64,000 bases of DNA from Chitinophaga sp. 180180018-3 (GTDB taxonomy: Bacteria > Bacteroidota > Bacteroidia > Chitinophagales > Chitinophagaceae): contig NZ_CP140772.1 in NCBI RefSeq assembly GCF_037893185.1, positions 3,782,001 through 3,846,000 of the forward strand, in the 5' to 3' direction. Shown piece by piece: positions 3,479 through 25,511 of this stretch. The translations under genes and the position numbers were made by a program. Position 1 is the first letter of the stretch. Each line of letters opens with the position of its first letter. A model generated the notes under the pieces. It was not told where the DNA came from, made no database searches, and saw nothing but the letters and a program-made list of their open reading frames with translations.

Positions 3479-3602
3479 TTCATACAATATTCGGCTTTTT
3501 TTATTCTATTCTATCCTTTCCCGACCACCCTATTTTAATGTTTGTTCTCTACCTGATGAGATATAAAGTGTTCGCTTAAGTCTGGTCTATCTATTATCTT
3601 TT

Positions 3603-3689
3603 GGTACCGGCATACAATCTATCCTGGATTCGCTTGCACAGTTTATAAATGACCAATATAACCAGTCGCGATTTGCGGCCTCAGTAAAA
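3603..3689 (+). pseudogene. relic of a second serine-hydrolase 5' end
   Basis: Reading from 3603, the frame gives 'GIQSILDSLAQFINDQYNQS', which matches 'AQSIRDSLTQLISDQYNQS' just after the signal peptide of the hydrolase at 1612. Similarity stops after about 29 codons and there is no matching signal sequence upstream. This is a remnant of a tandem copy, or of a recombination that used the hydrolase gene as homology. Confidence 0.75.
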
Positions 3690-4251: not shown

Positions 4252-4276
4252 AAACCCCGCGACTAGCGCGAGGTTT
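4245..4276 (-). terminator. terminator of the hsd operon
   Basis: Read on the minus strand, an AAACCTCGCG / CGCGGGGTTT stem (one mismatch, 4252-4276) is followed by a T-rich tract (TTTTCTTTTTT, 4245-4255). It is the first rho-independent terminator after hsdM, and the ~70-bp direct repeat at 4280-4349 lies between the two. Confidence 0.8.
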
Positions 4277-4279
4277 GTA

Positions 4280-4349
4280 ACTTCTCTATGATCCCTATGG
4301 TACAAAATTCGAACTCTTTTATCCTTGAATTGCGAAAATTGGCAGACAT
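4280..4349. repeat. left copy of ~70-bp direct repeat flanking the restriction operon
   Basis: My hand alignment with 11841-11910 gives 56 identities in 70 with no gaps. The core CCCTATGGTACAAAA (4293-4307) is identical in both copies, followed by YTCGAAC. Both copies lie in the same orientation and both have a hairpin terminator just to their left. The likely role is a site-specific recombination (attachment) site of a cassette. Confidence 0.75.
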
Positions 4350-4419: not shown

Positions 4420-6024
4420 TCATATAGGATCCAGCCCCAAATCTTTTAAAAATTCATTATGCTTTTCTGTATTCACTTTTATACTCTCGTTTATTGAAGT
4501 AAGCTTTTTATTTACTTCTTTCAGATCAATTTCCACTTCCTGTACTGATGTACTTACATACCGTGAAATATTAAGATTATAGCCGTGCTGTTCAATTTCC
4601 TCCATTGAAACCCGTCGTGCATATCTTTCAATGTGCTCTGGTCTAAACTGATAAGTTTCAACTATCTTTTTTATATGCTCTTCCTCCAGCAAGTTTTGTC
4701 TTTTCCCTGGCTTGTAATGTTCACTGGCGTTGATAAACAAGACATCATCCTGTTTTTTACATTTTTTTAAAACCAGAATACAAACCGGAATACCAGTGGA
4801 ATAGAACAAATTGGAAGGCAAACCAATGACAGTATCTATGTGATTATCCTTTAAAAGCTTCGTACGTATTCTTTCTTCAGCACCACCACGAAATAATACA
4901 CCATGGGGCAAAATAATTGCCATTGTGCCTTCCTTGGCTAAATAGTGGAAACCATGCAATAAGAAAGCAAAGTCGGCCGCTGATTTTGGCACCAAACCAT
5001 AATTTTTAAACCGGAAGTCTTGCGCCAAAGTCTCAGTAGGATCCCATCTCAAGCTAAAGGGTGGATTCGCTACGATAGCATCGAACTCCATTTTCTTACT
5101 CGGATTCATTTCATTGAGCAGGGGCCAATGATTCTCCAAAGTATCTCCATGAAATATATCAAACTCACCATCTTTCATGCCATGCAAAAGCATATTCATC
5201 CGGGCGAGATTGTAGGTGGTGATATTTTTTTCCTGTCCGTATATCTTTCCTATACTCCCGCCATTATCTTTCATTTTCTTCCTTACGTTCAGCAACAGGG
5301 AACCTGATCCACATGCGAAATCCAACACTTTATCCAGTTTGCCCCTTTTTCCACTCGTGGGATCCTGACCATCTAAGGTCACAATTTCAGAAAGTACAGT
5401 TGAAATTGGTTGTGGGGTATAAAACTCGCCTGCTTTTTTTCCCGATCCAGCAGCAAACTGCCCGATAAGGTATTCATAAGCATCTCCCAGCGTGTCAGAA
5501 TCTGTAGAAAAATTTGCAATACCTTCCGCAATTTTCTGAATGATCGTGCAGAGCTTTTTGTTTCTGTCAGTATTGGTTTTTCCAAGCTTTTCAGAATTTA
5601 AATTGATTTCCGAAAATAATCCCTGAAAAGCACTTTCAAAGGATTCATTTTCTATATAGTGGAAACCTTCATCCAGAGTCTTTAGCAAATCCAAATGCTG
5701 AGTACGTGCCATTTCGCTGATACTGCTCCAAAGGTGCTCAGGCTTTATATTATAATGTACCTTTCGCCTCATCTGTTTCTCAAAATCCGGTACTTCGACT
5801 TTATTCTCCGCATACCAAACAGATAGTGGAATGCGATCATCACCTTCTGCTAACCTGGGATAGTCTTTTCCCAACTCCCTTCTTGCAGCTTCTTCGTAAT
5901 TGGACGATAAATACCTTAGGAATAAAAAAGATAGCATGTAATCACGAAAGTCATCCGCATTCATTGCACCACGCAAATCATCTGCTATAGCCCAAAGGGT
6001 TTTACCTAGTTGTTGTTGTGTCAT
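4420..6024 (-). CDS. hsdM: type I restriction-modification system, methyltransferase subunit HsdM
   Basis: 534 residues, normal for HsdM. The N-terminal HsdM helical domain (from 'LGKTLWAIADDLRGAM') is followed by the N6-adenine methyltransferase domain, with 'GEFYTPQPI' near residue 200, SAM-binding 'DFACGSGSLLL' near 234 and catalytic 'NPPF' near 320. With HsdS it forms the M2S1 enzyme that methylates adenine in a bipartite target and protects host DNA. The ATG at 6024 lies 23 bases inside the end of the preceding ATPase gene, so the two are translationally coupled. It is the last gene of the operon. Confidence 0.95.
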   Translation of the reverse strand: MTQQQLGKTLWAIADDLRGAMNADDFRDYMLSFLFLRYLSSNYEEAARRELGKDYPRLAEGDDRIPLSVWYAENKVEVPDFEKQMRRKVHYNIKPEHLWSSISEMARTQHLDLLKTLDEGFHYIENESFESAFQGLFSEINLNSEKLGKTNTDRNKKLCTIIQKIAEGIANFSTDSDTLGDAYEYLIGQFAAGSGKKAGEFYTPQPISTVLSEIVTLDGQDPTSGKRGKLDKVLDFACGSGSLLLNVRKKMKDNGGSIGKIYGQEKNITTYNLARMNMLLHGMKDGEFDIFHGDTLENHWPLLNEMNPSKKMEFDAIVANPPFSLRWDPTETLAQDFRFKNYGLVPKSAADFAFLLHGFHYLAKEGTMAIILPHGVLFRGGAEERIRTKLLKDNHIDTVIGLPSNLFYSTGIPVCILVLKKCKKQDDVLFINASEHYKPGKRQNLLEEEHIKKIVETYQFRPEHIERYARRVSMEEIEQHGYNLNISRYVSTSVQEVEIDLKEVNKKLTSINESIKVNTEKHNEFLKDLGLDPI

Positions 6025-7165
6025 TTATCATTTTTTTGGTTTCTTCCTCAAATATTTCTGGAAAATGAAACTCATATTTGGTGAGAAATCCATTTAAAAT
6101 TCGTTTAAAAAGTTCTTTGTTGTCGTCACCCATTTCCACCGGATCAAAAACTGAGTATTTGCCATGGCTAAATAGTTGTAATGCTCTTTCAAAAAGCACT
6201 TCATCTTCTGCCTTCAGACTTCCTATACATTTATCAATACTATCATACCCAAAGAAAGTTGCAGTTTTTTCCAATATACTTCTTAGAGAATTAAAATGAT
6301 AAGTATAAATCCTATTTAATTCAACGACTTGCTTTAGTTCACTTAATATTGCAATATGGTGAAAAAACGGCGTATCGCTAGTATCCTGTAAAGCATATCC
6401 AGTAGATCGCTTGCCATGCAGAAAATAACGTTTATTCTTTCCACTTCTGCCGAACTCATTGAATATTACATTAAAGAACAAACTATGATGTGTAGAAATT
6501 ACTGTTTTAATATGATTATCTTCCCTGGTCAATAAATTCGATAGATCACAGGCTACGGCAATAACATTATTTTCGTCGAGGGACGATATCGGATCATCAA
6601 TGTAAATGTACTTTACCCAACTATATGCGGGGTCTTTATCGATTGCCAATTGGCAAATAGCTAGAAAAAAACACCAGATAAAGAGATTCTCCTCTCCTCT
6701 CGAAATCTTTATATTTTCTATACGTTGCTCATGACCATCAACAATTATACTTCTTGAAAATGTAACGGTAGATATTTCGTAATTAATATCAAACTTTAAA
6801 TCAACATAATTATTAAAGAATGCTTCTATTTTGACATCTAAATCTAATTCGCGTAGTCCCTCAAAAAATACAGATTCCGAATTAAGTTTCAGAAATCGAT
6901 TTGTATCGTTCTCTAAATCATTATTCCATGAAAACAAATCTTCTGTAAACGCATTAAAATACAATGTGTCTCTTGCAATTACATTACCACTAGCATCAAA
7001 CTCCTTCCCCGCCTGTTTAAACTCCATCGAAAGCCTGGTTTTACCAGTACCATTATGCGCAAATAGCAGAATAAACTCTTTCAGTTTCCGATGATCACCG
7101 GTTAAGTCCTTTCGTAAATGCTGAGCGACTTCGGTCAGGTTATTGAATTTTATTACTGGCTTCAT
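6002..7165 (-). CDS. prrC: PrrC-like anticodon nuclease (ABC-type ATPase with ACNase-like C terminus)
   Basis: A 387-residue protein; E. coli PrrC is 396. The N-terminal ~260 residues form an ABC-type NTPase with Walker A 'AHNGTGKT' (36-43), 'RDTLYFNAFTEDLF' (65-78), signature 'SRGEEN' (155-160), Walker B/D-loop 'YIYIDDPISSLDE' (186-198) and the H-loop 'STHH' (224-227). The C-terminal part has R295-x3-E299 and H334, close in spacing to the Arg-Glu-His triad (320/324/356) of the PrrC tRNA-Lys nuclease. PrrC is kept silent by its type I restriction partner and is freed when a phage inhibits that enzyme. Here it lies between hsdS (2-base gap) and hsdM (overlap), which fits that role. The nuclease activity is inferred; it could instead be a related AAA_13 ATPase. 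Confidence 0.75.
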   Translation of the reverse strand: MKPVIKFNNLTEVAQHLRKDLTGDHRKLKEFILLFAHNGTGKTRLSMEFKQAGKEFDASGNVIARDTLYFNAFTEDLFSWNNDLENDTNRFLKLNSESVFFEGLRELDLDVKIEAFFNNYVDLKFDINYEISTVTFSRSIIVDGHEQRIENIKISRGEENLFIWCFFLAICQLAIDKDPAYSWVKYIYIDDPISSLDENNVIAVACDLSNLLTREDNHIKTVISTHHSLFFNVIFNEFGRSGKNKRYFLHGKRSTGYALQDTSDTPFFHHIAILSELKQVVELNRIYTYHFNSLRSILEKTATFFGYDSIDKCIGSLKAEDEVLFERALQLFSHGKYSVFDPVEMGDDNKELFKRILNGFLTKYEFHFPEIFEEETKKMINDTTTTR

Positions 7166-7167
7166 TT

Positions 7168-8376
7168 CTAATCATTCATTTTGGGAAACAGACCTTGCAT
7201 TAATCCTTTTTTATGTAGCTTTAATTGCTCTAGTTTTTGGGCTTGGGTGGTGATTAGTTTGTCTAAGGAAGAAAGGCATGAGGCGATTTTTTGCTGTTCT
7301 TTTGCATTCTTTGGTAATGGAATAGGAATAATATCAAGCTTCGCTCTATTAAGTTTGGGTTGGGCCATCCCTGTAAGGAAATCTTCGACATTGATAGAGT
7401 TAATGTAAGCCTCAACTACTAATTGAGTATCAATATTATTGAACTTTAACACGTGTGAGTGATTATTTACCCAAGTTTTGCCTGATATGTTAAAGGCAAT
7501 AGGGTAGTTTCTATCAATCAAATTCGCACCATCCTCCGAAATACAGAGAAGTGTTTCATCAAAGAGATAATCCTTTACATAATCGATTATTCCTGAAGCC
7601 CCATAATAAGGAACATCTCCTTTATCTCTGTGAGTCGAAGTAACAGGAATTCTCCTTGAATCTAGATTCTCAGCAATGTCGCCGAGCTTCCTCGTTTCCC
7701 ACTCTCCATCCTTCACAAACTCAGGAAATCGATACTTCGGCCCCTTCCTTCCCTCTTGCGGAAAAATATTTTGCATTAGGCCCTTTTTATGCTCCTTGAG
7801 CAATTCCAGCTTTTGGTTATGGGCAGCAATTGTTTCATCTAAGAAAGAAAGGCAAGAAGCGATTTTATCTTGTTCACCTAATTCTGGTAGCAATACCCTG
7901 GTCTCCCTTAGTTCATTCATATTTATCTTACACGGAACTGCGTTTAACAAAGATTTACTAAGAATCTCATATTGATAAGTATTGGATTGAAAATAGGAAT
8001 GTAAATAATAGGAATTAAAATACTTTGATTTTTTGATACACGCAAGAGTTACATAAATGCTAAATTCGTAATCCCAGTTCACGACTGAAGAGAATCCAAT
8101 TTTTCCAATTCTTGTAATTAAGACATCACCCTTTTCAGGTTTATTTTTGCTTGTGGCTATTTGGTAATCCTCTCTTGAAATGAACTTATTCTTGTTTCTG
8201 CTTACGATATTCTCTACACTGAAAAACGGTATTCCATCTCCAGTGTATTTCGGCGTTTGGTGTGTTCCATCAAAAATAGCATCAGTGATTTTTGACAAGA
8301 CCTTAACCTCCCACTCTCCATCCTTCTCAAACTCAGGAAACCTCAATTTCGGTATCAATTTTTTTTTCTTACTCAT
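7168..8376 (-). CDS. hsdS: type I restriction-modification system, specificity subunit HsdS
   Basis: 402 residues with the usual two target-recognition domains. Each half starts with a 'LRFPEF.KDGEWE' / 'YRFPEFVKDGEWE' element (residues ~10-25 and ~212-226). Each ends in a near-identical helical spacer, 'IASCLSFLDETIAAHNQKLE..' and 'IASCLSSLDKLITTQAQKLE..', followed by 'HKKGLMQ..FP'. These central and distal conserved regions bind HsdM and set the spacing of the two half-targets. The start overlaps the end of hsdR by 8 bases. The internal repeat could allow recombination between TRDs, but no second hsdS cassette is present. Confidence 0.95.
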   Translation of the reverse strand: MSKKKKLIPKLRFPEFEKDGEWEVKVLSKITDAIFDGTHQTPKYTGDGIPFFSVENIVSRNKNKFISREDYQIATSKNKPEKGDVLITRIGKIGFSSVVNWDYEFSIYVTLACIKKSKYFNSYYLHSYFQSNTYQYEILSKSLLNAVPCKINMNELRETRVLLPELGEQDKIASCLSFLDETIAAHNQKLELLKEHKKGLMQNIFPQEGRKGPKYRFPEFVKDGEWETRKLGDIAENLDSRRIPVTSTHRDKGDVPYYGASGIIDYVKDYLFDETLLCISEDGANLIDRNYPIAFNISGKTWVNNHSHVLKFNNIDTQLVVEAYINSINVEDFLTGMAQPKLNRAKLDIIPIPLPKNAKEQQKIASCLSSLDKLITTQAQKLEQLKLHKKGLMQGLFPKMND

Positions 8377-11371
8377 AAGCTACTAATCCAGAAATTTCAC
8401 GCCCTTGGGCTAATTTTTTTAATTGCGGTACCAAGTCTTCCATTAAAGCCAACTCTTTTACTCTTCGTTCCCTCCAACTTAACTCCAATGGCTCTAATAA
8501 ACCTGTTAATTTTTCACCGTCAAAAAACATCCGGCTTATAATCTCGTCTACAAAGGTCTTGATTGCCACTGTTTGCAAACCATGTTTCTCCGCAATGGCC
8601 GCAAGCTCCTTGTTGTTTTTATCTTCTTTGAATTTCTCGTAGCCCTTGCGCAAGCTTTCTACACTTTGTCCGCTTTCCCAATCCAGACTTTTGATATACT
8701 CCGTTAAATCCTCTTCTTCGTCTATGAAATTAGAATTGGATCTTAACAGGCTAATTATTTGTCCCTTGGTCATTTTTTGCTTAGCCGGCTTCTTTTGGGT
8801 ATTCGCGGCAATTAGATTCATAATATAATCATAATCAATCACTGCAGAGGCAAACAATACAAATTCAAAATCCAATTGCTGTATTTCCGAAGGTGCGTTA
8901 TCCCCTTCCTTCTGTTGTATTTCTCTAAATTGTTTTGCAGTTTCGAGATAGGAGCTTCTAAAATTTTGCAACCTCTCTTGTGGCAAAATAGACTCGATGG
9001 CAGTCTTTTGCTCTTCATCCAAATCTGTGTATTGGTCCAGCTGCGTCTTAAGCCGTTGTACCTCCTTAAAATTTTTCATAAAGGCCAATCGTGCTGCATC
9101 TCCTCTCAGGTTGTATACTTCTGATGGCTCGCTTACCAGGTCATGCTCCTGCATAAACACTCCCAGCTTTTCTACTGCCTCCTTAAATTTATCAATTACT
9201 ACAGGTGCAGGATCTACCAACCAAATCTTCCTGGCTTTTCCATTGTCCTCACCCGAAAATAATTCAATTGCCTTGTTTACTGCTGCTTCCTGCGAACGAA
9301 AATCCAGGATATTACCATATGGTTTAGTATCGTTGAGTACACGATTTGTTCTGGAAAATGCCTGGATCAATCCATGGTATCTAAGGTTTTTGTCAACATA
9401 CAAGGTGTTCAGGTATTTAGAATCAAACCCTGTAAGCAGCATATCCACGACTATAGTAATGTCAATCTTGTTTTTATGAGGATAATCTTCATTGCTATAT
9501 TGCTGGTCTTTGATCCGCTTTTGCACATCCTGGTAATACAAATCAAATTCGTTGATAGAATGATTGGTGCCAAATTGCTTATTATAATCGTCAATGATTT
9601 CTATTAACGCCTTTTTCTTCTCTTCAGGGTTCTCTTTGTTATCTTCCTTTTCCTGGCTCAGATCTTCCTGCAATTGCTTAATATCAGCCGCATTTTTCTG
9701 GCTTTGCTGATCACCGTCTTTGCCCATCAATTGAGCTGGTGGAGAAAACACACACGCAATGTTCAATGGAGTGTAATCCGGATTTTCTACAAGTTTTGCC
9801 TTTTGTGCCATATTGAAAAGCTGATAATATTCTATGGCATTATTAATAGAGGCTGTCGCCAATAGTCCATTAAAACGCCTCGAATTAGTGGCGGCATTGT
9901 GCTTGTCTAAAATTGCATCAACCACAGCCTTTTGTGCAATAGCTTCGCCCGGCTTGGGATTGATGTTGCCGCTGCCTTTGAAATAATCGATATGAAAACG
10001 CAATACATTCTTATCGTCTATCGCATGTGTAATGGTATAGGCGTGTAATCTTTTTTCAAAAATATCCTGTGTCGTTTTGTAAGAACCTTCTTCTCCTTCC
10101 CTAATGTTATAAGTAGCATTTTCATCAAAGATAGGCGTACCCGTAAAACCGAATAGTTGAGCATTCGGGAAAAACTCTTTAATCGCTTTGTGATTGTCTC
10201 CGAACTGCGAACGATGACACTCATCAAAAATGAAAACCATACGTTTTTGTCTTAACAGCTCCAGGCGTTCTTTATAGTTTTTCTTATAGGTTCCATCAAG
10301 TGCCAAACCCAGCTTTTGTATAGTAGTAACAATTACTTTGTCAGCATAATCGGTAGAAAGCAAACGCCTTACAAGAGTTTCCGTATTGGTATTTTCTTCT
10401 ACGCTGCCTTCCTGAAATTTATTAAACTCTTCCCTGGTTTGACGGTCAAGGTCCTTTCTGTCTACAACAAACAGGCATTTTTCTATATCGGGGTTATCCT
10501 TTAGTAAAGTAGATGCCTTGAATGAGGTCAGCGTTTTACCACTTCCGGTGGTGTGCCAGATATACCCATTTCCTCTGTTGTCTTTAATACAATCCACAAT
10601 GGCTTTTACAGCATAGATCTGGTATGGTCGCATAACAAGCAATTTCTGCTCTGTTTCAACAAGTACCATATATTTACTGACCATTTCTGCCAACGTACAT
10701 TTGGATAGAAACTTATCAGTAAAAGCATAGAGATTATTTATCTTTTGATTATCAATGTCTGCCAACTCATAAACTGGCAAAAATTGTTCATCTGCATTAA
10801 AAGCAAAGTGTTGATTTTTGTTATTTGCAAAATAAATAGTACGATTTACATTGCTTACAATAAACAGCTGCATAAAGCAGAGCAATGAATTTCCATAACC
10901 ATTGCCAGGTTCATTTTTATAATCCACAAGCTGCTGCATCGCCTTGCGATGTGATATATCTCCTCTTTTCAATTCGATTTGCACCATAGGCAAACCATTA
11001 ATCAGCAAGATAATATCATAGCGCTGATGACTGTTCTCTGTGTTAATACGCAACTGACTAATGACTTCAAAATCATTCTTGCACCATTCTTTATGGTTCA
11101 CCAAAGTGTAATATAAGGGTGTTCCATCGTCGCGTTGGAAATACTGCTTCTCTCTTAATAATTTAGATGCAAAAAAAACGTCCGGGTGAATAATTTCCTC
11201 TCTTAGCCTTAAAAATTCATTGTCAGTAAGTCGCACACGATGAAGCGCCTCAAATTTATTTTTAAAGTTCTGCTCAAGTGTTCTTCGATCGACTATATCA
11301 GGCCGATGAATATACTTAAGACCGGTGAGTTGCTTGATAAGGTTATTCTCTATTTCCTTTTCTTTGCTCAT
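8369..11371 (-). CDS. hsdR: type I restriction endonuclease subunit R
   Basis: 1000 residues. The N-terminal nuclease domain has the PD-(D/E)xK core 'VQIELKRG' near residue 132. The SF2 translocase follows, with Walker A 'WHTTGSGKT' near 274, DEAD-box-like 'DECHRSQFG' near 385, motif III 'GFTGTP' near 410 and motif VI 'QAFSRTNRV' around 670. A helical C-terminal domain docks on the methylase. The enzyme cuts unmethylated DNA after ATP-driven translocation. It is the first gene of the operon hsdR-hsdS-prrC-hsdM; in the E. coli prr locus hsdR is last. Lys-rich, AT-rich gene like the rest of the cassette. Confidence 0.95.
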   Translation of the reverse strand: MSKEKEIENNLIKQLTGLKYIHRPDIVDRRTLEQNFKNKFEALHRVRLTDNEFLRLREEIIHPDVFFASKLLREKQYFQRDDGTPLYYTLVNHKEWCKNDFEVISQLRINTENSHQRYDIILLINGLPMVQIELKRGDISHRKAMQQLVDYKNEPGNGYGNSLLCFMQLFIVSNVNRTIYFANNKNQHFAFNADEQFLPVYELADIDNQKINNLYAFTDKFLSKCTLAEMVSKYMVLVETEQKLLVMRPYQIYAVKAIVDCIKDNRGNGYIWHTTGSGKTLTSFKASTLLKDNPDIEKCLFVVDRKDLDRQTREEFNKFQEGSVEENTNTETLVRRLLSTDYADKVIVTTIQKLGLALDGTYKKNYKERLELLRQKRMVFIFDECHRSQFGDNHKAIKEFFPNAQLFGFTGTPIFDENATYNIREGEEGSYKTTQDIFEKRLHAYTITHAIDDKNVLRFHIDYFKGSGNINPKPGEAIAQKAVVDAILDKHNAATNSRRFNGLLATASINNAIEYYQLFNMAQKAKLVENPDYTPLNIACVFSPPAQLMGKDGDQQSQKNAADIKQLQEDLSQEKEDNKENPEEKKKALIEIIDDYNKQFGTNHSINEFDLYYQDVQKRIKDQQYSNEDYPHKNKIDITIVVDMLLTGFDSKYLNTLYVDKNLRYHGLIQAFSRTNRVLNDTKPYGNILDFRSQEAAVNKAIELFSGEDNGKARKIWLVDPAPVVIDKFKEAVEKLGVFMQEHDLVSEPSEVYNLRGDAARLAFMKNFKEVQRLKTQLDQYTDLDEEQKTAIESILPQERLQNFRSSYLETAKQFREIQQKEGDNAPSEIQQLDFEFVLFASAVIDYDYIMNLIAANTQKKPAKQKMTKGQIISLLRSNSNFIDEEEDLTEYIKSLDWESGQSVESLRKGYEKFKEDKNNKELAAIAEKHGLQTVAIKTFVDEIISRMFFDGEKLTGLLEPLELSWRERRVKELALMEDLVPQLKKLAQGREISGLVAYE

Positions 11372-11807: not shown

Positions 11808-11839
11808 AAAAGGCTTCAGAAAATATTCTGAAGCCTTTT
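11808..11839 (-). terminator. hairpin terminator adjoining the right direct repeat
   Basis: A perfect 14-bp stem, AAAAGGCTTCAGAA (11808-11821) with TTCTGAAGCCTTTT (11826-11839), has a 4-base loop and a T-run on the minus-strand 3' side. Like the hairpin at 4252-4276 it lies directly left of the direct repeat, so repeat plus terminator is a repeated unit. Confidence 0.8.
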
Positions 11840-11840
11840 C

Positions 11841-11910
11841 ATTTCTCTGTGAACCCTATGGTACAAAACTCGAACCTTTTTATTTTTGACCTACGCAAAT
11901 TAGCAGAAAT
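11841..11910. repeat. right copy of ~70-bp direct repeat flanking the restriction operon
   Basis: Shares the core CCCTATGGTACAAAA (11854-11868) and flanking ~80% identity with 4280-4349, in the same orientation. Together the copies bracket 7.5 kb holding only the hsd operon. Confidence 0.75.
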
Positions 11911-13382: not shown

Positions 13383-13685
13383 TTATTCCTTTTTCCCAAT
13401 TTCACGCAAGGTAATTAGACTTGCTACATCAGGCTTAAAAGAGGGATTGATCTTTATATACCCCCACTGCTTCAAATCTTTCATACAGTAATAGTAGATT
13501 CTTTCAGATCGGATTTTCGCTTGATCCCGTAGTTGCATTGAAAAAACCCGAACTGGATTGATACCACCTTGCTTACGGAAAAAATAAAGAATAGCCAACA
13601 TCAAGCTAATATGCTTAGGGCTAAACTTTGCATCTTCACCTACCATATCCATAAAATCATCTATATAGCTATCAAAGCAAATCAT
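13383..13685 (-). CDS. small winged-helix-like protein at end of tra operon
   Basis: 100 residues. The middle ('SPKHISLMLAILYFFRKQGGINPV' in two parts, then 'QLRDQAKIRSERIYYYCMKDLKQWGYIKI') looks like a helix-turn-helix plus wing: a helix, a short 'MQLRDQAKI' helix, a recognition-like helix 'SERIYYYCMKDLKQWG' and a strand 'YIKINPSF'. It overlaps the preceding gene by 4 bases (ATGA-type coupling) and is the last gene before the terminator, so it belongs to the transfer operon. It may regulate the operon or plasmid-like replication; the role is inferred from shape only. Confidence 0.65.
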   Translation of the reverse strand: MICFDSYIDDFMDMVGEDAKFSPKHISLMLAILYFFRKQGGINPVRVFSMQLRDQAKIRSERIYYYCMKDLKQWGYIKINPSFKPDVASLITLREIGKKE

Positions 13686-14560
13686 CCTGTAGTCTGTTTA
13701 CGCTGCTTTCTTGGAGGCTTTGCCTCACCATCCTTCTGTTTCTGACCTTTCTTTGCAGACTGCTGCTGCTTCTCCTTTTGGTTATCAGATTGTCTATTCG
13801 TCTGTTTATTATCCTGCGGTTCCTTCTTTTGTTCCTTTTGCTGCTGTTCAAGCTGTCGCTGTTTTAATTTTTCTCCTAACTCCTGACTGATAAACCCTTT
13901 CTCAATCTGCTGATCCAAAGGAATCAGCTTTTTATCCAGGTCATAAAGAATTAAACTACCAGACCGGATAGCAGGAGTAGTGTACAATTCTTCCTGCTTC
14001 CCATCTTTATTTAAAAACTTCTCCTTTTGAAAATTGCCACGTTCCAGCGATTCTTTCAATGAAGATTTGTATACTACAGAATATTCGTCAATTACCTTTC
14101 CTACATCGTAGCCATAGGCTTTATCAAATCTTTCCGAATTGTAATTGCCATTTTGTAGTTTCTCCTTTGGCTTTATCCTTTCCCAAGAATCACTTTTAGC
14201 ATGGTGAACAGGTCTACCTTGCAGGAAGTTATATGCCATTTTATAAGTAAAATTATCCTTCACTTTCTGGCCTTCTTCCTCCTTTCTATGGTTCAGGTAA
14301 AAGGTTTGTGTCCGAGTTTCTCCGTTCTCACCTTTCTGAGCAGTCATGTCGAACTTATGAAGAAAATAATCTCCAGTTGTAGCTGACTTCCTCAAGTGAA
14401 ATACAGTGTCACTATTTCCTTCATCATATTTTTTAGAATACGGATGCTCAATAGAGGGAAGCCCTTCCTGCATTTTCTTTATAAGAGCATCGTTATATGC
14501 TTCCTTCATGCCAATCAGCATAAAGTGTTTTTGCGTTATATTAACTTCATTTCCATCCAT
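13682..14560 (-). CDS. conjugative-element protein of unknown function, paralogue 1
   Basis: 292 residues, no signal peptide. Residues ~1-230 align with the neighbouring gene at 14617, sharing 'H..IG.KEA', 'FHLRKSA', 'Q.FY.NHR', 'F..AYNFLQGRPV', 'F..A.GYD.GKV.D.YS', 'PAI.S.SL.L.D...KL.P...QIE' and 'LGEK'. The last 60 residues are a Gln/Lys-rich, disordered tail not present in the paralogue, ending in basic 'PPRKQRKQTTG'. The tail could bind nucleic acid. I do not recognise the family; the position at the end of the tra operon suggests a cytoplasmic partner of transfer or element control. Confidence 0.75.
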   Translation of the reverse strand: MDGNEVNITQKHFMLIGMKEAYNDALIKKMQEGLPSIEHPYSKKYDEGNSDTVFHLRKSATTGDYFLHKFDMTAQKGENGETRTQTFYLNHRKEEEGQKVKDNFTYKMAYNFLQGRPVHHAKSDSWERIKPKEKLQNGNYNSERFDKAYGYDVGKVIDEYSVVYKSSLKESLERGNFQKEKFLNKDGKQEELYTTPAIRSGSLILYDLDKKLIPLDQQIEKGFISQELGEKLKQRQLEQQQKEQKKEPQDNKQTNRQSDNQKEKQQQSAKKGQKQKDGEAKPPRKQRKQTTG

Positions 14561-14616
14561 AGAATAAACTTTTTACTGGTGACATTCATAGGCTGAATAT
14601 TGCCTAACACCTATTA

Positions 14617-15444
14617 TCAAATCTTTCTAAGTAACTTTTTAATTGGCGCGATCTTCTCAATTATTGCCTGCTTAATAGACTTCTTTTTTCCAATATCAGC
14701 ACGTTGTTCAACGTTCAATTTTAGATTTTTGCCTGCCTGCCTTTGAATTTTTTCGCCCAGTTTCCTACTAACTAATTTTTGCTCAATTTGTTCCTTTATC
14801 GGCACCAGTTTCCTATTCTCATCAAATAAATCTAGGCTATCTGAAGTAATCGCTGGGGTAATGAAATAATCACGTTGTGAACCATCTCTAGTAGTGAATT
14901 TTTGCTTTTCCAAATTCCCAGCTTGCAAGGATTCCAGAATGGATAGCTTATCATGTGGATTGAAAAAAGAATACTGGTCAAGCACCTTCCCCAAATCATA
15001 ACCATAGCTTTGATCGAAAGCCTCGAAAAAGAAACCATGTTTATAGGATGGGCTTGGCACTTCCTGTTCCCAAATTTTATTATTAGGGAAGAATACCGGC
15101 CTACATTGGAGAAAGTTATATGCTTGTAAAAAGGTGGCATTATCTGGTTGATCACCGCGTTCGTAATTCCGATGATTGAAATAAAATGTATTCTGATGCT
15201 TGATGTTTGTCCCTGCTATAATCGTTGACATATCCATCTCGGATAAGAAGTAATTTTCCATATTAGCAGACCTTTTGACATGAAAAACAGCATGAGCATC
15301 GCCATCAGGATATGCCTTTATGTACTCATGTTTGATTAAAGGCTCATACGCTTTCAATTTTTCAACCAAATCCGCCGTGAATGCCTCCTTTGCCCCAATA
15401 TGAATAAATTGATTTTTAACAAATTCCAACTGCCTATCTTCCAT
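14617..15444 (-). CDS. conjugative-element protein of unknown function, paralogue 2
   Basis: 275 residues, homologous along ~230 residues to the gene at 13682. The same skeleton is visible: 'FIHIGAKEAF', 'AVFHVKRSAN', 'NTFYFNHRNYERGD', 'AYNFLQCRPVFF', 'YGYDLGKVLDQYSFF', 'PAITSDSLDLFDENRKLVP'. Its C terminus is short and basic instead of Gln-rich. The two genes are 56 bases apart in the same orientation, so they look like a tandem duplication that diverged. Not identified with a named family. Confidence 0.75.
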   Translation of the reverse strand: MEDRQLEFVKNQFIHIGAKEAFTADLVEKLKAYEPLIKHEYIKAYPDGDAHAVFHVKRSANMENYFLSEMDMSTIIAGTNIKHQNTFYFNHRNYERGDQPDNATFLQAYNFLQCRPVFFPNNKIWEQEVPSPSYKHGFFFEAFDQSYGYDLGKVLDQYSFFNPHDKLSILESLQAGNLEKQKFTTRDGSQRDYFITPAITSDSLDLFDENRKLVPIKEQIEQKLVSRKLGEKIQRQAGKNLKLNVEQRADIGKKKSIKQAIIEKIAPIKKLLRKI

Positions 15445-15496
15445 ATGTTATATTTAACCACTACAGTAATCAGCCACCACCAGGTTAAAAAGTAAA

Positions 15497-16375
15497 CTAT
15501 TGAATGCCGGTGCCAGAGGTACGTAAAAACGGAAAGTCTGATATGAGGGTTCTTGCCCGAAGCAGATACCGATGCCTGAGTTTCAGCAAAAGTGTCCTTC
15601 CACCATTCATTTCTCCAACCTGAATAAGCAAATCCTGATTACGAGGAATAGTAAATGCCGGAAATACTATAACAACACTACCAGAGCTATCACCATCTAT
15701 ACTAGGCTGTTCAGTAGAGAACAATGGATTCAGCACTTTTTCCTGAATGGCTGTTTTCTTTGCCTTCTTTCTATCCTTAACAATAAACTTTATGTAGTCA
15801 GGCGTATAACTGATTTGAGAATTGTTGCGAACCGTAAGTTTAAAAAACATAATATTTTCCCGCATGTAAATACTACCTAGTGAGAGGCTCACCTTTTGTT
15901 CAGAAGTCCGCTTACGCAAAAATCCCCGATGTTCCATTACCTGTAGGCTCGAATTTTCGTAGAACTCTTTATCATGCTCAAACCCTTTCAGCATTACTCC
16001 TTTGCCATCTTCTTCACCTTTATAGAATCGCAAATTCAATACGGATGGTTCGTTAGCATACTTTAGCAGGAAAGAATACAAACGTCCATCTGCTGTAATT
16101 ACAGACAGATTTGTTTCAGGGAAATTTACTGCCGCAGCTTTCACCTGCAATACATTTTCTGCCCCCTTTGCCTTCTGAGCGAGGATGGCACTGCTGCCTC
16201 GGTCAACACTTTTAATTTCGTATGGGAAAATGAGATTGCTGGTCTGATTAAGGCTCACCCATAAATAATAGGGATCAATTTTCTTTGCCTTCATTTCAGG
16301 ATAACCTGTTACTTGCCCGAAAGCCGTAACGAAAAGAATACAACTCACAATCCATGTAGCACAAAACCTTTTCAT
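15497..16375 (-). CDS. traN: conjugative transposon protein TraN (VirB9-like)
   Basis: 292 residues with an N-terminal signal peptide ending near 'TAFGQ'. The DUF4138/TraN pattern is visible: 'LWVSLNQTSNLIFPYEIKSVDRGS' (shown in part) near residues 40-60, 'VLQVKAAA..FPETNLSVIT.DG..YSF' near 80-110, and beta-rich sequence after. TraN is the outer-membrane-side VirB9 analogue of the Bacteroidetes type IV secretion channel and pairs with TraM. It lies 21 bases downstream of traM in the operon order found in CTnDOT-like elements. Confidence 0.9.
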   Translation of the reverse strand: MKRFCATWIVSCILFVTAFGQVTGYPEMKAKKIDPYYLWVSLNQTSNLIFPYEIKSVDRGSSAILAQKAKGAENVLQVKAAAVNFPETNLSVITADGRLYSFLLKYANEPSVLNLRFYKGEEDGKGVMLKGFEHDKEFYENSSLQVMEHRGFLRKRTSEQKVSLSLGSIYMRENIMFFKLTVRNNSQISYTPDYIKFIVKDRKKAKKTAIQEKVLNPLFSTEQPSIDGDSSGSVVIVFPAFTIPRNQDLLIQVGEMNGGRTLLLKLRHRYLLRARTLISDFPFLRTSGTGIQ

Positions 16376-16396
16376 ATTCTCTTTTTTAATTGATTA

Positions 16397-17704
16397 TTAC
16401 CGATTTTTCACGTTGTTATCCACAAGAAGCACATCGTAACCACTGCGGATATTAACTTTCACCACTTTTAATTTCCTGCCGACTAAAGACTTCGCGGCCT
16501 GAATGCCTGCACTGGCCGCCTGCGCACCAATACTGGGATCAAGACTGGCAATACTTAAACTTTGTATAGCCTGATCCGTTGTCTGCTTAGTAACCTCCGT
16601 TGCCATGTTTGCATTAACATCTACGCCCAGGATTCCATCCATGTCAAATACACTCAAATCAACAGGGAGAATATTGTTACCATATTGTATTGAGGTTACG
16701 TTTATTACAAATCTGCCATCAGCTAACTTTCCTTTACCCCAAACAAAGGTGTTTCGTGGTATAGGCACACCAGCAACAAAAATTTCCTCCAACAACCGCA
16801 GCTGAACTTTTGAGCCATCCATCACCTCTTTAGATTCCGCGATTACCGCCCGGACAGTGTTCTGTTTTACCTCACCGGCTTCATCGTCCGATGAATAAAA
16901 CTTATTAGAAGTCCCCAATCGCGCCGCCCTTAACGAATCCAAAAAGGTGTTTCTCCTTCCGGTATCTGCTTCCATAAGCGATACCACATCATTTCCCCGT
17001 GAAGATTTGACACTAAAAACCTGACTTCGATTCGATTCGGACATTTCCTGCAAACGATCCTTAACACGTCCCGGATGCTGTATGTCTAAAATTTTTTCAA
17101 GCACACCAGAAATCTGTTCCATTTGTTTATCGGGTTTATCTTCACTCATTTCCTTCATCATAGCTTCCAATCTGTCTACACCTTGCAAATCCGCTTTTTC
17201 CCTCGGAATTTCTAAGGTTGACGTAGCTGTTTGTTCCTTAGTCGTACTCCTTTCAAGTTCGCTGTTGATTGCGGCAATCTTACGGTACACTTTTTCCTCG
17301 TTCTCATCTTTACTTGAAATTCCATAAGGGCTTTTCATCTGCGGATCACCTTTTACATATCCAATTCCTGACGTGTCGGCCCTAAAAATATTCTCATACA
17401 CCGATGGAGTAGAGTAATACGGATCTTTCTCTTTCAGTGTGCGCATCTTAGCTGAATCCTTATCCGCCATTTCATAGTACATCAATTTATTCCAGCTACT
17501 ATCACCGGATGCCTTAGCCCACGGCAAATCCATGTTGATACCATCTTTTTTAACAACTGTAACAATACCTTTGCTTCCATTGCCAATAACACCAAAAGAC
17601 GATAACAGGATAGTCAAAAATGGAATCACCAAAACAGGCATTACCATCAGAAACTGTCGTTGTTTTCGCAGCTTTTCATTAACTACACTTTCATCACTTT
17701 TCAT
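16397..17704 (-). CDS. traM: conjugative transposon protein TraM (VirB10-like)
   Basis: 435 residues. One membrane helix at ~18-38 ('FLMVMPVLVIPFLTILLSSF') with a short cytoplasmic N terminus, then a long low-complexity, charged periplasmic linker (~60-260). A VirB10-type beta domain is at the C terminus: 'VQLRLLEEIFVAGVPIPRNT', then 'VWGKGKLADGRFVINVTSI', then 'DMDGILGVDVN'. TraM spans the periplasm and links inner-membrane ATPases to the outer pore. Its stop is separated by 21 bases from traN. Confidence 0.9.
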   Translation of the reverse strand: MKSDESVVNEKLRKQRQFLMVMPVLVIPFLTILLSSFGVIGNGSKGIVTVVKKDGINMDLPWAKASGDSSWNKLMYYEMADKDSAKMRTLKEKDPYYSTPSVYENIFRADTSGIGYVKGDPQMKSPYGISSKDENEEKVYRKIAAINSELERSTTKEQTATSTLEIPREKADLQGVDRLEAMMKEMSEDKPDKQMEQISGVLEKILDIQHPGRVKDRLQEMSESNRSQVFSVKSSRGNDVVSLMEADTGRRNTFLDSLRAARLGTSNKFYSSDDEAGEVKQNTVRAVIAESKEVMDGSKVQLRLLEEIFVAGVPIPRNTFVWGKGKLADGRFVINVTSIQYGNNILPVDLSVFDMDGILGVDVNANMATEVTKQTTDQAIQSLSIASLDPSIGAQAASAGIQAAKSLVGRKLKVVKVNIRSGYDVLLVDNNVKNR

Positions 17705-17707
17705 AAA

Positions 17708-18172
17708 CTATTTTTTATTGTTATCTAATGCTTCCATTTGATAAAGGCTGTCTATAAGACCGGGCCTAGCAACCAGCAGACTATCATAAACACCCTTTCC
17801 GATCTTATCATTTCTCAGACTATCTAGGTATTTCCGAAATAGTTTCATTTTTTCTGTCACATATAGCGATGCTGGTGTGTTACTGTGATTGTCTGACGGC
17901 AAAACATTCTTGGGTATCAATATTGGCTGGATGCGAACATGGCTACCTGCGGATTTTCCAGCGTTTATCAGCACCAAAGCGGTAACAGTTACATAGCTGA
18001 AAATAAATACCACCAATATAACCTTTACCTTAAATGATGACCAGTTAGCCACCTTTGCATTCAGCCTATCAGCCCATCTTCTTTGCAAATGTTCCGCCTT
18101 CCCGGAGAAACGTTGTGAAAGAGCATCAACAACAGTAATACGACCTGCCTTCCGTCTAAATAATTTCCACAT
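17708..18172 (-). CDS. tra operon single-pass membrane protein in the traL position
   Basis: 154 residues with one membrane helix at ~50-68 ('VKVILVVFIFSYVTVTALVL'), a basic cytoplasmic N terminus (~45 residues) and a periplasmic tail. The gene sits between traK and traM, where CTnDOT-like elements have traL, 3 bases before traM. I see no sequence match to TraL that I can vouch for, so the identity is by position only. It probably is an inner-membrane accessory of the secretion channel. Confidence 0.75.
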   Translation of the reverse strand: MWKLFRRKAGRITVVDALSQRFSGKAEHLQRRWADRLNAKVANWSSFKVKVILVVFIFSYVTVTALVLINAGKSAGSHVRIQPILIPKNVLPSDNHSNTPASLYVTEKMKLFRKYLDSLRNDKIGKGVYDSLLVARPGLIDSLYQMEALDNNKK

Positions 18173-18182
18173 ATAAAACAGT

Positions 18183-18800
18183 TTAACGTTCCGTAGTATT
18201 TATATCCCGATTTTCCAGCGTAGACCACCTCTCTATTAAAAAACCGTGTGAATTGTTGTCACTACGACTGATATTTCGTATATACCCTTCTGTAGTAAGG
18301 CTTCTTATCAATATACTTGTTGCTCTTATAATTCGCTGGTGGGCATAACACCTGAAATAATACGGATACTGATCCACATTCACGGAAACACTGTCTACTT
18401 CAATTTTCTGTGAAATATTTCCTGAGATCACATTGTTATAATACCCGCTTTCCTTTAGATTTTCATACTGCCTTTTCGCAGAAGCATCCGCCATGTATAA
18501 GGCACGGACGATATTGTTCTTAATGACAGTTTCATCGGGGTCTAGTGTGAAGAAATAGTAGTGAAACATTTTCACGTGATCCCGTGCTTCTACGGGAATA
18601 TTGTCTTTCTTTTCGCTGGCAAATGCTTCCAGAACTTTTCCATTAGCCAGGACATAAATTCTATCCTGTGTTTTTGATGCCAGCAACATAGATTTGTAAA
18701 TGGTAAACGCTGACAAAAAAAAAGACAACAGCACTATAAGAAGGGTGAATATCCGCACATGCGCAAAGGCACCCTGAATACTTTTCATTTTTTGAAACAT
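18183..18800 (-). CDS. traK: conjugative transposon protein TraK (VirB8-like)
   Basis: 205 residues: a short cytoplasmic N terminus, a membrane helix at ~17-37 ('FTLLIVLLSFFLSAFTIYKS'), then a periplasmic domain. TraK features are 'VLANGKVLEAF', 'EARDHVKMFHYYFFTLDPDE' near residue 75-94 and 'YYFRCYAHQRIIRATSI' near 150-167. VirB8-like proteins nucleate assembly of the channel at the inner membrane. Located between traJ (58 bases) and the traL-position gene (10 bases). Confidence 0.9.
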   Translation of the reverse strand: MFQKMKSIQGAFAHVRIFTLLIVLLSFFLSAFTIYKSMLLASKTQDRIYVLANGKVLEAFASEKKDNIPVEARDHVKMFHYYFFTLDPDETVIKNNIVRALYMADASAKRQYENLKESGYYNNVISGNISQKIEVDSVSVNVDQYPYYFRCYAHQRIIRATSILIRSLTTEGYIRNISRSDNNSHGFLIERWSTLENRDINTTER

Positions 18801-18858
18801 ACACTTTCACTTTTCATTCAACACATTGTTTCATTTCAATAATCCGCCAATCCTATAC

Positions 18859-20148
18859 TCACGAGGTATCACCCCCCTTTAACTTATTAGCCATATGCCC
18901 ATAAGCACGACCTGCATCCGCAGCCAATCCTTTACCTGTACTTCCAGAATCATATCCATCTTTGATATTATCCGGAGCATTATATAGGTTCCTCAAACCT
19001 GCTTCTACAGAATTGTTATCGGCAAACATGAGATCACCGAAACCGTCAGCAGCAGCACCGGCAGCCCTACCAGCCATTCCCGCAGCACCTTTGGCAGCAC
19101 CAGCAGCAGCACCAGCTACTCCACCCACCGCAGCTGTCATTTTACCAGTAAGCGCGTCCCCGCCAACAAACATGATATGGTTAGCGATACTAGGAATAGT
19201 GGTATATCCGTAAATTCCTATTATCAAAAAAACCATATACCCCAAATCTGTTCTGCTAAAAAACGTATCACCGGTCTGACCGATTTGTGTAAGGTCAATT
19301 TTCAGCATCTCAGCTTGAATAGTCGCTATTACGGCACCGAATATCTGCGCAATCGGCAACCAAAGAAATACATTTATATACCTTGCCAACCAGTGTTTAA
19401 GCGTATGCTGAAATCCGTCAAATACAGAAAGCCCAAAAACCAATGGCCCCAATATTGCCAAGATGATCAAATTGAAAGTTCGCATGGTATTAATACACAG
19501 AGAAACAGCTGCAAATAAAAGCTGTAGTACTTCCGCAATCACCTCCTTTATCGCATTTCTGAAATTGTATGATGCCTTTGCAAAAGCGAATCGTATATCG
19601 TTGCCCACACTAGCAAAAAAACCTTCATCGGTACTGGGCTTTCCATCATGCGTGTATTTATACCATTGTTCCCTGCCGCCTTCACCAGTTGGGCCAACGT
19701 ACATCTGCCATACATCTGTTTTCTTGATCGCTTCTTCTTTTTGTTTTAGCAGTGCAGCCACAGATACATCAGCCTTATCAACCATCTTTGCCGTCCCTGT
19801 AACAGTGGGTTGCATTACTCCATTAATCATGGTAATAACAGACGGAAATATGAGAATAGCAAAACCAATAATGAATGGCCTAAACAGCGGATAAAAATCA
19901 ATAGGTTCCGCCCGTGATAAATGCCCCCATACCCGTGCGGCTATATACCATAGAGCAGCAAAACCAGCGATACCGCGCCCAACACCAATCAGTTCAGCAC
20001 ATAGTGGCATCAACTTGTTATATAGTTCAGCCAACACTACATGCAAACTTTTTATATCATCCGCTGCGCCTCCCGATTGTGCAAAGAGAAAACAAGGGAA
20101 AAAGAGAAATAAAGAACCAGCTAAAACAGCTTTCAACCACACATTCAT
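18859..20148 (-). CDS. traJ: conjugative transposon protein TraJ (VirB6-like)
   Basis: 429 residues. An N-terminal signal-like helix ending in 'FAQS', then 'LCAELIGVGRGIAGFAALWY', 'EPIDFYPLFRPFIIGFAILI' and several further membrane helices (~190-320) with 'LGPLVFGLSVFDGFQ' and 'WLPIAQIFGAVI', the hallmarks of TraJ. The last ~100 residues are rich in Ala/Gly ('AAAGAAKGAAGMAGRAAGAA') and end cytoplasmic-like. TraJ is the polytopic VirB6-type inner-membrane component through which DNA is thought to pass. Confidence 0.93.
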   Translation of the reverse strand: MNVWLKAVLAGSLFLFFPCFLFAQSGGAADDIKSLHVVLAELYNKLMPLCAELIGVGRGIAGFAALWYIAARVWGHLSRAEPIDFYPLFRPFIIGFAILIFPSVITMINGVMQPTVTGTAKMVDKADVSVAALLKQKEEAIKKTDVWQMYVGPTGEGGREQWYKYTHDGKPSTDEGFFASVGNDIRFAFAKASYNFRNAIKEVIAEVLQLLFAAVSLCINTMRTFNLIILAILGPLVFGLSVFDGFQHTLKHWLARYINVFLWLPIAQIFGAVIATIQAEMLKIDLTQIGQTGDTFFSRTDLGYMVFLIIGIYGYTTIPSIANHIMFVGGDALTGKMTAAVGGVAGAAAGAAKGAAGMAGRAAGAAADGFGDLMFADNNSVEAGLRNLYNAPDNIKDGYDSGSTGKGLAADAGRAYGHMANKLKGGDTS

Positions 20149-20171
20149 ACCCCACGATTTTAAAATGATAA

Positions 20172-20822
20172 TTATTTCAACCCCTCCATACTTCTCATGC
20201 GCTCCACTTCCTTCTGTTCTTTCATACGCTGAATAGCCATAACAGTATTGGAAGAATTGAAGTGCCTTAAAAATGTCAACTTATCCAACACCTCAGCGTG
20301 TATCTTATCAATTGCATTCAACCGTTCCTCATCTGACATTCTAAGATTACTCGCTGTGATAACAGTTACCAAGTCATCCAGATTTTGAAGTGAAGCATCG
20401 AATAGCCGTCCATACACTCTCCCCATATACTCAATTTCTTCTATTGTAAAACTGCCTGATTCCTTCGCATACTGGAAAGCCCTTTTATACTCCTTCACCA
20501 ACAAAACCTGATTGTTAACTATATCTGCCACACGGCTGTATTTCTTAATCGCCGGGTTCACCTCCATTAATCCATCCAAAAAAACTTTGTGTAATTGAAA
20601 ATTACCCTGACTGATATTTTTGATTGTATTATAGCCGCCAGATAGAATTTCGTAACCCTTTTTGAGATCAGAAAGAATTTGTTTGAATTGCGCCAATTTT
20701 TCGATATTGAGAGCGAGTTGCGCCAGTTCTTTTGCCTGCGCATTGCTTTGCCCAGGTGCGGCCAACAACAAAAGAAACAAACTACATAAATAACAATAGA
20801 ACCACTTCCTGCACTTTTTCAT
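20172..20822 (-). CDS. TraI-like (DUF4141-type) periplasmic transfer protein, copy 1
   Basis: 216 residues from the ATG at 20822 (the open frame goes back to 20939, but that overlaps the preceding gene). A signal peptide 'FLLLLAAPGQSNAQ' is followed by an all-helical body with heptad-like spacing and 'LRMSDEERLNAIDKIHAEV' near residue 165. It ends in 'QRMKEQKEVERMRSMEGL'. The same endings occur in the two upstream paralogues and, from memory, in CTnDOT TraI. TraI occupies the VirB5-like periplasmic slot between the ATPase and TraJ genes. Confidence 0.8.
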   Translation of the reverse strand: MKKCRKWFYCYLCSLFLLLLAAPGQSNAQAKELAQLALNIEKLAQFKQILSDLKKGYEILSGGYNTIKNISQGNFQLHKVFLDGLMEVNPAIKKYSRVADIVNNQVLLVKEYKRAFQYAKESGSFTIEEIEYMGRVYGRLFDASLQNLDDLVTVITASNLRMSDEERLNAIDKIHAEVLDKLTFLRHFNSSNTVMAIQRMKEQKEVERMRSMEGLK

Positions 20823-20833
20823 AGACACTAGTT

Positions 20834-21442
20834 TTATTCTGTTACTTTTCGCATTGTCTTTACGTCCCGCATTTCCTGCTGTCGCTGTAGCACCTGCACT
20901 TTTGTAGATGAACAAAAGGATTTTGTGAACAGATAACAATCTTGCATATCAGCATAGATGGCATCTATTCGTTTGATGCGCTCATCATCACTCAGTTCCA
21001 TCTTCCCGGACGTGATCAACGGCACGAGGTCAGATAACATATTCTCGCAGCTTGTGAGCAATCTGATCCTAATGTCCGCTACGTAAGAAACCTCAGATCC
21101 AGCGAATAGATTACTCTCTCGCATGTCTTTTAATACTCCGGTAAAGTCCCTTGATATTTCAAGACTACTGCTGATAACCTCAGCAATGCGTGTATAATTG
21201 CGGATTTTCGAGTTTATAGTTTCTAGCGAAAGAAAAAAGTTTTTATCAAGGCTGAAGTGTCCGTCCTTTACATTGCCTATAAACGTTAAACCTTGACGGG
21301 CGATCTTATAACCTTTCTGTAGGTATTCTAAATAAACCTTGTTAGCTGCTATCTGCTGGAGATATACCTTTATCTGGTTACTCTGAGAAAAAACAGGCAG
21401 GTGCAGAAACAGAACCGAGCAAAAAATTATCAGAAGTTTCAT
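20834..21442 (-). CDS. TraI-like periplasmic transfer protein, copy 2
   Basis: 202 residues with a signal peptide ('LLIIFCSVLFLHLPVFSQS'). The body is helical and parallels copies 1 and 3: 'YLEYLQKGYKIARQGL..IGNVKDGHFSLDK', 'YTRIAEVI..SLEISRDF', 'MELSDDERIKRIDAIYADM' and a C-terminal 'RQQEMRDVKTMRKVTE'. The start at 21442 lies 6 bases after the previous gene, and its end is 11 bases before copy 1. Three such genes in a row suggest a hetero-oligomer or relaxed copy specialisation. Confidence 0.8.
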   Translation of the reverse strand: MKLLIIFCSVLFLHLPVFSQSNQIKVYLQQIAANKVYLEYLQKGYKIARQGLTFIGNVKDGHFSLDKNFFLSLETINSKIRNYTRIAEVISSSLEISRDFTGVLKDMRESNLFAGSEVSYVADIRIRLLTSCENMLSDLVPLITSGKMELSDDERIKRIDAIYADMQDCYLFTKSFCSSTKVQVLQRQQEMRDVKTMRKVTE

Positions 21443-21448
21443 AACACA

Positions 21449-22120
21449 CTATTTAATTCCGTACATCATTTTTATCTGCTTAACGTCCTTTTGATCCCTC
21501 GCTCGTTGCAGCACCAACTTCTTATTTTCGTTATTGAACGAGCGCAGGTCGTTTAGGTTTATATCAATACTTTCAGCAACGCCATTAAGGATTTCGATTC
21601 TTTTACCATCAGTCATTTTGGTACTGAAAGAATTAATGACCAGGAACAGATTATCTACGTTCTTCAAACTTTCGTCAATAATGCCGGTATAAACTTTGGT
21701 CATGTAATCAATCTCCTGCGAGTTGAAATGCTTGTCCTTTTTGAAAAGTTTGAACGCAGCATTATATTCGTCCACAATAGCCACTTGTTTATTGATAATC
21801 TCTTTTACTCGTTTATATCCGCTGATAGCCTGCTTTACTTTACTCAGTTCATCAAAATATTGCTGGTATTGTTCTTTGTGCTTTTTCGCCCAGTCCGAAA
21901 TTTCATCGAGTTTCAATTTTGTTAGAATATTCTCTACCTCCTTTTGAGCATTTTGCAACCATATGGTTTTGTTTTGCAAACGTTGTACAGCAAGATCGGC
22001 GGCTTTAATTGCAGCAATGAGCGCCTGCCTTGCAACTTCCCAGATAATCGCGTGGCTTTTCTTTGTCGGTGCAAGCACCAAGCAAAAACAAAGCATCACC
22101 GTCACAAAAACCTTGTTCAT
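21449..22120 (-). CDS. TraI-like periplasmic transfer protein, copy 3
   Basis: 223 residues with a signal peptide ending near 'KKSHA'. Long amphipathic helices follow ('QKEVENILTKLKLDEISDWA', 'KHKEQYQQYFDELSKVKQAI'), then 'STKMTDGKRIEILNGVAESI' and the C-terminal 'QRARDQKDVKQIKMMYGIK'. This 'R...DvK.ikmmYG' ending is the closest of the three to classical TraI/DUF4141. The gene directly follows traG by 18 bases. Confidence 0.8.
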   Translation of the reverse strand: MNKVFVTVMLCFCLVLAPTKKSHAIIWEVARQALIAAIKAADLAVQRLQNKTIWLQNAQKEVENILTKLKLDEISDWAKKHKEQYQQYFDELSKVKQAISGYKRVKEIINKQVAIVDEYNAAFKLFKKDKHFNSQEIDYMTKVYTGIIDESLKNVDNLFLVINSFSTKMTDGKRIEILNGVAESIDINLNDLRSFNNENKKLVLQRARDQKDVKQIKMMYGIK

Positions 22121-22138
22121 ACACTTTGAGATTATGGG

Positions 22139-24586: not shown

Positions 24587-24628
24587 AAATCTTTAAATGC
24601 TTCAAAATCATAAACCCTTTCTCAATGT

Positions 24629-24949: not shown

Positions 24950-24961
24950 ACATCACATAAT

Positions 24962-25297: not shown

Positions 25298-25342
25298 ACA
25301 CACTTCGCTTTTATTGTTATCAAAAAAGTAAGGACAATAAAA

Positions 25343-25406: not shown

Positions 25407-25436
25407 GAATACACTACAACAACAACTATTTAAAAA

Positions 25437-25500: not shown

Positions 25501-25511
25501 CTTTACGGTAC

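Follow-up and report, generated by a model that had tools for sequence, protein, structure and literature searches.

The window analysed here, a stretch of 64,000 nucleotides from Chitinophaga sp. 180180018-3 (contig NZ_CP140772.1), contains an intact type I restriction operon with a standard PrrC, a kind of system that is already known. The locus is best read as a PrrC guardian system housed in a type IC-like restriction-modification operon and acting by the mechanism set out below, a reading to which a probability of about 0.92 was given. It is carried by the gene identities, the motifs and triad of the nuclease, the operon layout and the gene order across the family.

Operon organization

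Four contiguous open frames were read on the minus strand in the order hsdR-hsdS-ATPase-hsdM, running from position 11371 down to 4420 of the window (Table 1). The genes hsdR and hsdS overlap by eight bases, two bases separate hsdS from the ATPase gene, and the end of the latter overlaps the start of hsdM by 23 bases. Reading of the frames bore out the four genes, coordinates and junctions given in the preliminary description. HsdR matched TIGR00348 (368.8 bits against a cut-off of 284.55), the PADLOC model REase_I (1061 bits) and the Pfam domain EcoR124_C, a domain of type IC enzymes (E = 3.4e-61). HsdM scored 386 bits with TIGR00497 (cut-off 242.75) and HsdS was recognized by Pfam Methylase_S (E = 3.4e-36). 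The linkage of prrC to a type IC restriction-modification system is therefore present in the window, with prrC sitting between hsdS and hsdM. Promoter-like and terminator-like sites occurred at close to the frequency expected from shuffled sequence (33 versus 27.2, sd 4.6, and 7 versus 5.9, sd 2.7, respectively). It should also be noted that hsdS contains a 44-bp repeat (86%) at 7697–7740 and 8309–8352, near the start of each half, which is a possible site for recombination between the two recognition halves.

Table 1. Features of the restriction operon, its PrrC protein and the flanking repeats (positions in the window).
Feature	Position	Strand	Remarks
Left copy of imperfect 75-bp direct repeat	4275..4349	+	flanks operon
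hsdM	4420..6024	-	N6-adenine methyltransferase subunit, 534 aa
prrC	6002..7165	-	ABC-ATPase and anticodon nuclease, 387 aa; from PADLOC and alignment
C-terminal anticodon-nuclease (HEPN-like) domain, residues 262-387	6005..6382	-	assigned from model, fold comparison and alignment
R327-x6-H334	6164..6187	-	third triad residue and HEPN Rx4-6H-type motif; R327 in 90/91, H334 in 91/91
R295-x3-E299	6269..6283	-	first two triad residues; conserved 91/91
D264	6374..6376	-	aligned with E. coli PrrC Asp287; D in 69/83 of window lineage, 8/8 E. coli-like
Walker B / D-loop YIYIDDPISSLDENN, residues 186-200	6566..6610	-	D197 aligned with E. coli D222
ABC-signature-like SRGEEN, residues 155-160	6686..6703	-	from alignment
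Walker A AHNGTGKT, residues 36-43	7037..7060	-	A36, N38, G41, K42, T43 at least 97% conserved
hsdS	7168..8376	-	specificity subunit, 402 aa, two Methylase_S stretches
hsdR	8369..11371	-	type I restriction subunit, 1000 aa, type IC-like (EcoR124_C domain)
Right copy of imperfect 75-bp direct repeat	11836..11910	+	79-81% identical to left copy

Identification of the PrrC protein

The ATPase was matched by the PADLOC PrrC model (PDLC02360) over residues 6–377 of 387 with an E value of 2.2e-134, compared with 1.5e-147 for protein L086 and 2.1e-142 for L085. The first of these, a 396-aa PrrC from an E. coli IncY plasmid, was used as the reference, as its residues D222, D287, R320, E324 and H356 have the published E. 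coli PrrC numbering (taken from the available text of PMC2610378 and PMC3014915). The window protein is 34% identical to it (119 of 352 aligned residues). An alignment was then built from 91 PrrC proteins, comprising 83 of the window lineage and eight of an E. coli-like lineage, with frames of 330 aa or shorter omitted (3 of 94, namely L029, L079 and L080).

The N-terminal ABC-ATPase part of the window protein has its Walker A motif, degenerate signature, Walker B motif and linchpin His all present, and STHHSLF occupies residues 224–230. The NAFTEDLF and SRGEEN elements reported earlier from the sequence were found again, the former at residues 71–78 and present in L086 as well. This former element could be, but need not be, the PrrC Box, which the accessible part of PMC2610378 gives as described only in PrrC.

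In the C-terminal part, R295, E299 and H334 aligned with R320, E324 and H356 of the E. coli type, and all three were kept in 91 of 91 proteins, in agreement with the PrrC-like triad proposed beforehand. The pair S333-H334 is present. In the predicted model R295 and E299 would lie one turn apart on the same helix, with H334 just past another helix. The window residue D264 aligned with Asp287, which in E. coli PrrC contacts the modified wobble base (PMC3014915, in the part available); this alignment is less firm than that of the triad because gaps lie close by. A fold search with the whole protein returned matches covering the ATPase part only; with the C-terminal domain alone, HEPN matches were obtained at middling Z, within reach of unrelated helical bundles. 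The RNase domains of PrrC and RloC have been assigned to HEPN (PMC3710099, as stated in the section available). Taken together, the PADLOC match, the ATPase motifs and the triad argue for the PrrC-like anticodon nuclease that the preliminary description had put forward.

A single match to prrC was found in the 8.13-Mb, one-contig genome of the strain itself at E <= 0.001. Elsewhere at least 7,999 candidate homologues were detected at the same threshold, far beyond chance, the best of them being 91% identical. The close relatives listed (proteins P0001–P0120 and loci L002–L081) were mostly from Bacteroidota, with proteins up to 91% and loci up to 84% identical to the window. Nine of the 120 listed relatives were named anticodon nuclease or wobble nucleotide-excising tRNase, most carrying no such name. 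Among 50,697 phage records no PrrC match was found at E <= 1e-5. Searches of the PDB gave two chance-level matches with the window protein alone as query and one weak match to Rad50 (E = 0.0078) with the PrrC alignment as query, so that no solved PrrC was found by sequence.

Gene order across PrrC lineages

The order of the E. coli prr locus is hsdM-hsdS-prrC-hsdR, or M-S-C-R (PMC3014915, available text), and the order R-S-C-M of the window had accordingly been regarded as unusual. This view did not hold, as R-S-C-M was the sole order in all 76 four-gene loci of the window PrrC lineage (70 loci from named genomes, the window and five plasmids), and a system cloned as HsdR, HsdS, PrrC, HsdM has already been tested (PMC11555353, in the part available). 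What was read as a surprising order is standard in a large PrrC lineage. The sample for this lineage consisted of the best 80 of 103 relatives, all from named genomes, of which 70 had all four genes and nine were cut by contig ends, the last being L053; split genes were collapsed in the count and inserted other genes ignored. The order M-S-C-R was found in eight of eight E. coli-like plasmid loci examined, a hand-picked set, the plasmid regions examined being 13 from 113 matching records per search. The latter layout is also represented in the window's own family, by locus L133 of one genome, which begins M-S-C as in the E. coli-like set. A search of the literature found no survey of PrrC gene order, which does not mean that none exists.

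In a tree of the 91 PrrC proteins the eight E. coli-like members were set apart by a branch with 100/100 support. The Hsd partners of the window and of L086 also differ, being 32% (HsdR) and 37% (HsdM) identical. Gene order thus goes with the restriction-modification subfamily. The junction of hsdS and prrC is shared by both orders: of the 88 loci that have hsdS and prrC, 84 carry prrC directly after hsdS with no more than 58 bases between them, and another gene is inserted in three of the remaining four. Two orders, two partner subfamilies and one shared junction offer a natural comparison for determining which Hsd subunit silences PrrC.

Against this background, E. coli PrrC with EcoprrI resembles the window system in its ABC-ATPase, its triad, the Asp287 equivalent, a prrC directly after hsdS and a type IC-like partner; it differs in its order, in a PrrC identity of about 34% and in its other Hsd subfamily. 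The loci of the close relatives share R-S-C-M with the window, some having one more gene at the S-C or the C-M junction.

The PrrC170 system of Klebsiella quasipneumoniae has the same gene order as the window but an enterobacterial host, and was cloned as HsdR, HsdS, PrrC, HsdM. According to the available part of the report, it acts against T1 and T7, its toxin arrests growth and targets tRNA-Lys, and the stated identity to EcoPrrC is 35% (PMC11555353). A K. quasipneumoniae plasmid locus examined here, which may or may not be the PrrC170 system, has the order R-S-C-M with two further genes between R and S. The PrrC encoded there shares 34.7% identity with the E. coli type and 53.7% with the window protein.

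Several variant loci were also encountered. Locus L053 (321–6090) is an R-C-M operon with no recognisable hsdS between hsdR and prrC. In six loci (L028, L030, L039, L047, L064 and L071) the C-M or S-C junction is interrupted by a gene for a protein of about 320–341 aa; these proteins share a MAELF-containing start and are presumably RhuM-like. Two enterobacterial plasmids typed to IncC and IncA (L082 and L085) carry two extra genes between hsdR and hsdS, encoding a TrlF-like ATPase and an RNA-binding-domain protein.

Proposed mode of action

By analogy with EcoprrI (PMC3014915) and PrrC170 (PMC11555353), as far as the available text of both reports describes them, silencing by Hsd, the trigger, the tRNA-Lys target and an abortive outcome may be expected of the window system as well. 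Host DNA would be methylated by HsdM and HsdS, which together with HsdR would cleave DNA lacking the modification. PrrC, in which an ABC-ATPase is joined to a HEPN-like RNase, probably shares its transcript with the Hsd genes and is most likely kept silent in a complex with Hsd subunits; in EcoprrI, PrrC is silenced by the Hsd complex and released by an anti-restriction factor (PMC3014915, in the portion available). Were a phage product to disable the restriction enzyme, the PrrC ATPase would hydrolyse nucleotide and thereby free the RNase, which would cut tRNA-Lys (UUU) in the anticodon loop and stop translation, and the infected cell would die or arrest before the phage multiplies. The putative target is encoded by the host: four of the 30 tRNA loci scanned are tRNA-Lys(UUU) genes, with the loop CTTTTAA. 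The suicide "second layer of defence" suggested for this locus in the preliminary description would, judging from the studied relatives, be the result.

A PrrC-family nuclease with another target or trigger than E. coli PrrC, such as another tRNA or gating by HsdS-HsdM instead of HsdR, is unlikely but is the alternative that fares best. The R-S-C-M and M-S-C-R proteins, at about 34% identity, lie on opposite sides of a long branch and their Hsd partners belong to different subfamilies, and 14 of 83 window-lineage proteins differ at the D264 column. Against another target, the tested system with HsdR, HsdS, PrrC and HsdM targets tRNA-Lys (PMC11555353, same portion), and the window protein has an Asp at position 264.

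Considerably less probable is the view that the gene is a relic, or that its product is an AAA_13 ATPase without nuclease function which travels passively with the restriction operon. Pfam assigned the ATPase to AAA_13 alone (E = 1.2e-16), and membership in an AAA_13 group other than the anticodon nucleases was one of the checks suggested beforehand; the family search assigned the protein to PrrC instead, by far its best family. The prrC frame is full-length with its ATPase and nuclease residues intact, including the whole triad, and the hsd frames are open too. RloC, which shares the triad R-x3-E ... H and the ABC motifs (PMC2610378, in the part available), was rejected as an identity at a probability close to nil, because the window protein has only 387 aa, compared with the 658–897 aa of RloC, and lacks the CxxC of the zinc-hook coiled-coil insert found there, and because it lies inside a type I operon, where RloC is rare (linkage to type I or III systems in 8 of 73 RloC genes, according to the same source).

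A third PrrC lineage upstream of hsdM

The window HsdM was used in searches of the family, where 13 of 60 genomes matched at E <= 1e-60, and of the phylum, where 27 of 296 matched at E <= 1e-200, own genome included. Four of the 13 family genomes, again with the strain itself, carry the window HsdM lineage (at least 74% identity). Across 29 loci with this HsdM lineage, the window PrrC lineage was found upstream of HsdM in five, window included, and a third PrrC lineage in eight (L126, L141, L142, L143, L147, L149, L155 and L164). No PrrC was found in the other 16, where the stretch read reached at most about 1.5 kb upstream, less in some; two of these, L128 and L158, are R-S-M operons without prrC.

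The third-lineage proteins are about 353–377 aa long, 29–31% identical to the window PrrC and 30–34% to the E. coli type. In six of the eight loci a fragment of hsdS lies ahead of the gene. The member at L155 is incomplete and was omitted from the triad count and the family scan. All seven full-length members keep the triad and give E values of 2.8e-86 to 1.7e-98 with the PADLOC PrrC model, so this lineage too is recognised by current models. In the Asp287 column they have Lys or Asn, with Asp residues close by in at least one member, so that no weight is placed on the difference.

It is tempting, though doubtful at present, to view the slot just after hsdS as an exchange point for guardian nucleases, filled by the window PrrC, by the third lineage or by none within one HsdM lineage, presumably a Bacteroidota one. 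Should the third lineage or the R-S-C-M one respond to another Hsd subunit or cleave another tRNA, the restriction-modification operon would amount to a chassis whose suicide effectors are interchangeable modules. The third lineage in this slot is the only part of the system that might repay new work.

Flanking repeats and genomic setting

Two copies of an imperfect 75-bp repeat lie in the same orientation just outside the R-S-C-M operon, each beside a hairpin (Table 1). They look like footprints of attachment sites. No further copy was detected in the strain's own genome at E <= 0.01. A 19-base core of the repeat occurs three times there, the third near a tRNA-Arg gene and near a gene which we take to be ParA-like. 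Within a family draw of 98 genomes the repeat gave short matches in five others (six with the strain itself), and no integrase was recognised in the four repeat-match stretches with frames read. Flanking direct repeats were seen at five of 74 other loci, those with less than 300 bases of flank having been dropped, and are therefore not a general feature.

Beside the operon, at 13383–27211 of the window, lie conjugative-transposon genes (DUF4138, TraM, TraJ, TraG and RteC, at 15.5–27.2 kb), near which no integrase or relaxase was recognised among the frames read or scanned, a part of the total. The GC content of the operon is 37.5% and that of prrC 33.5%, against 41–43% in three other measured stretches. 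The operon, bracketed by direct repeats and lying next to these transposon genes, is probably a horizontally moved cassette.

Other genes of the window were noted in passing. Near the transposon genes, at 28466–29326, lies the gene for a 286-aa protein that has a HEPN domain at its C-terminal end (E = 1.2e-10), and at 57207–61577 a single frame encodes a 1456-aa protein combining a full RND pump (ACR_tran) with an outer-membrane efflux (OEP) domain. An 85-bp stretch (1690–1774) of the gene for a beta-lactamase-fold serine hydrolase (1546–2886) recurs at 3597–3681 with 75% identity and is likely the remnant of a second serine hydrolase copy downstream.
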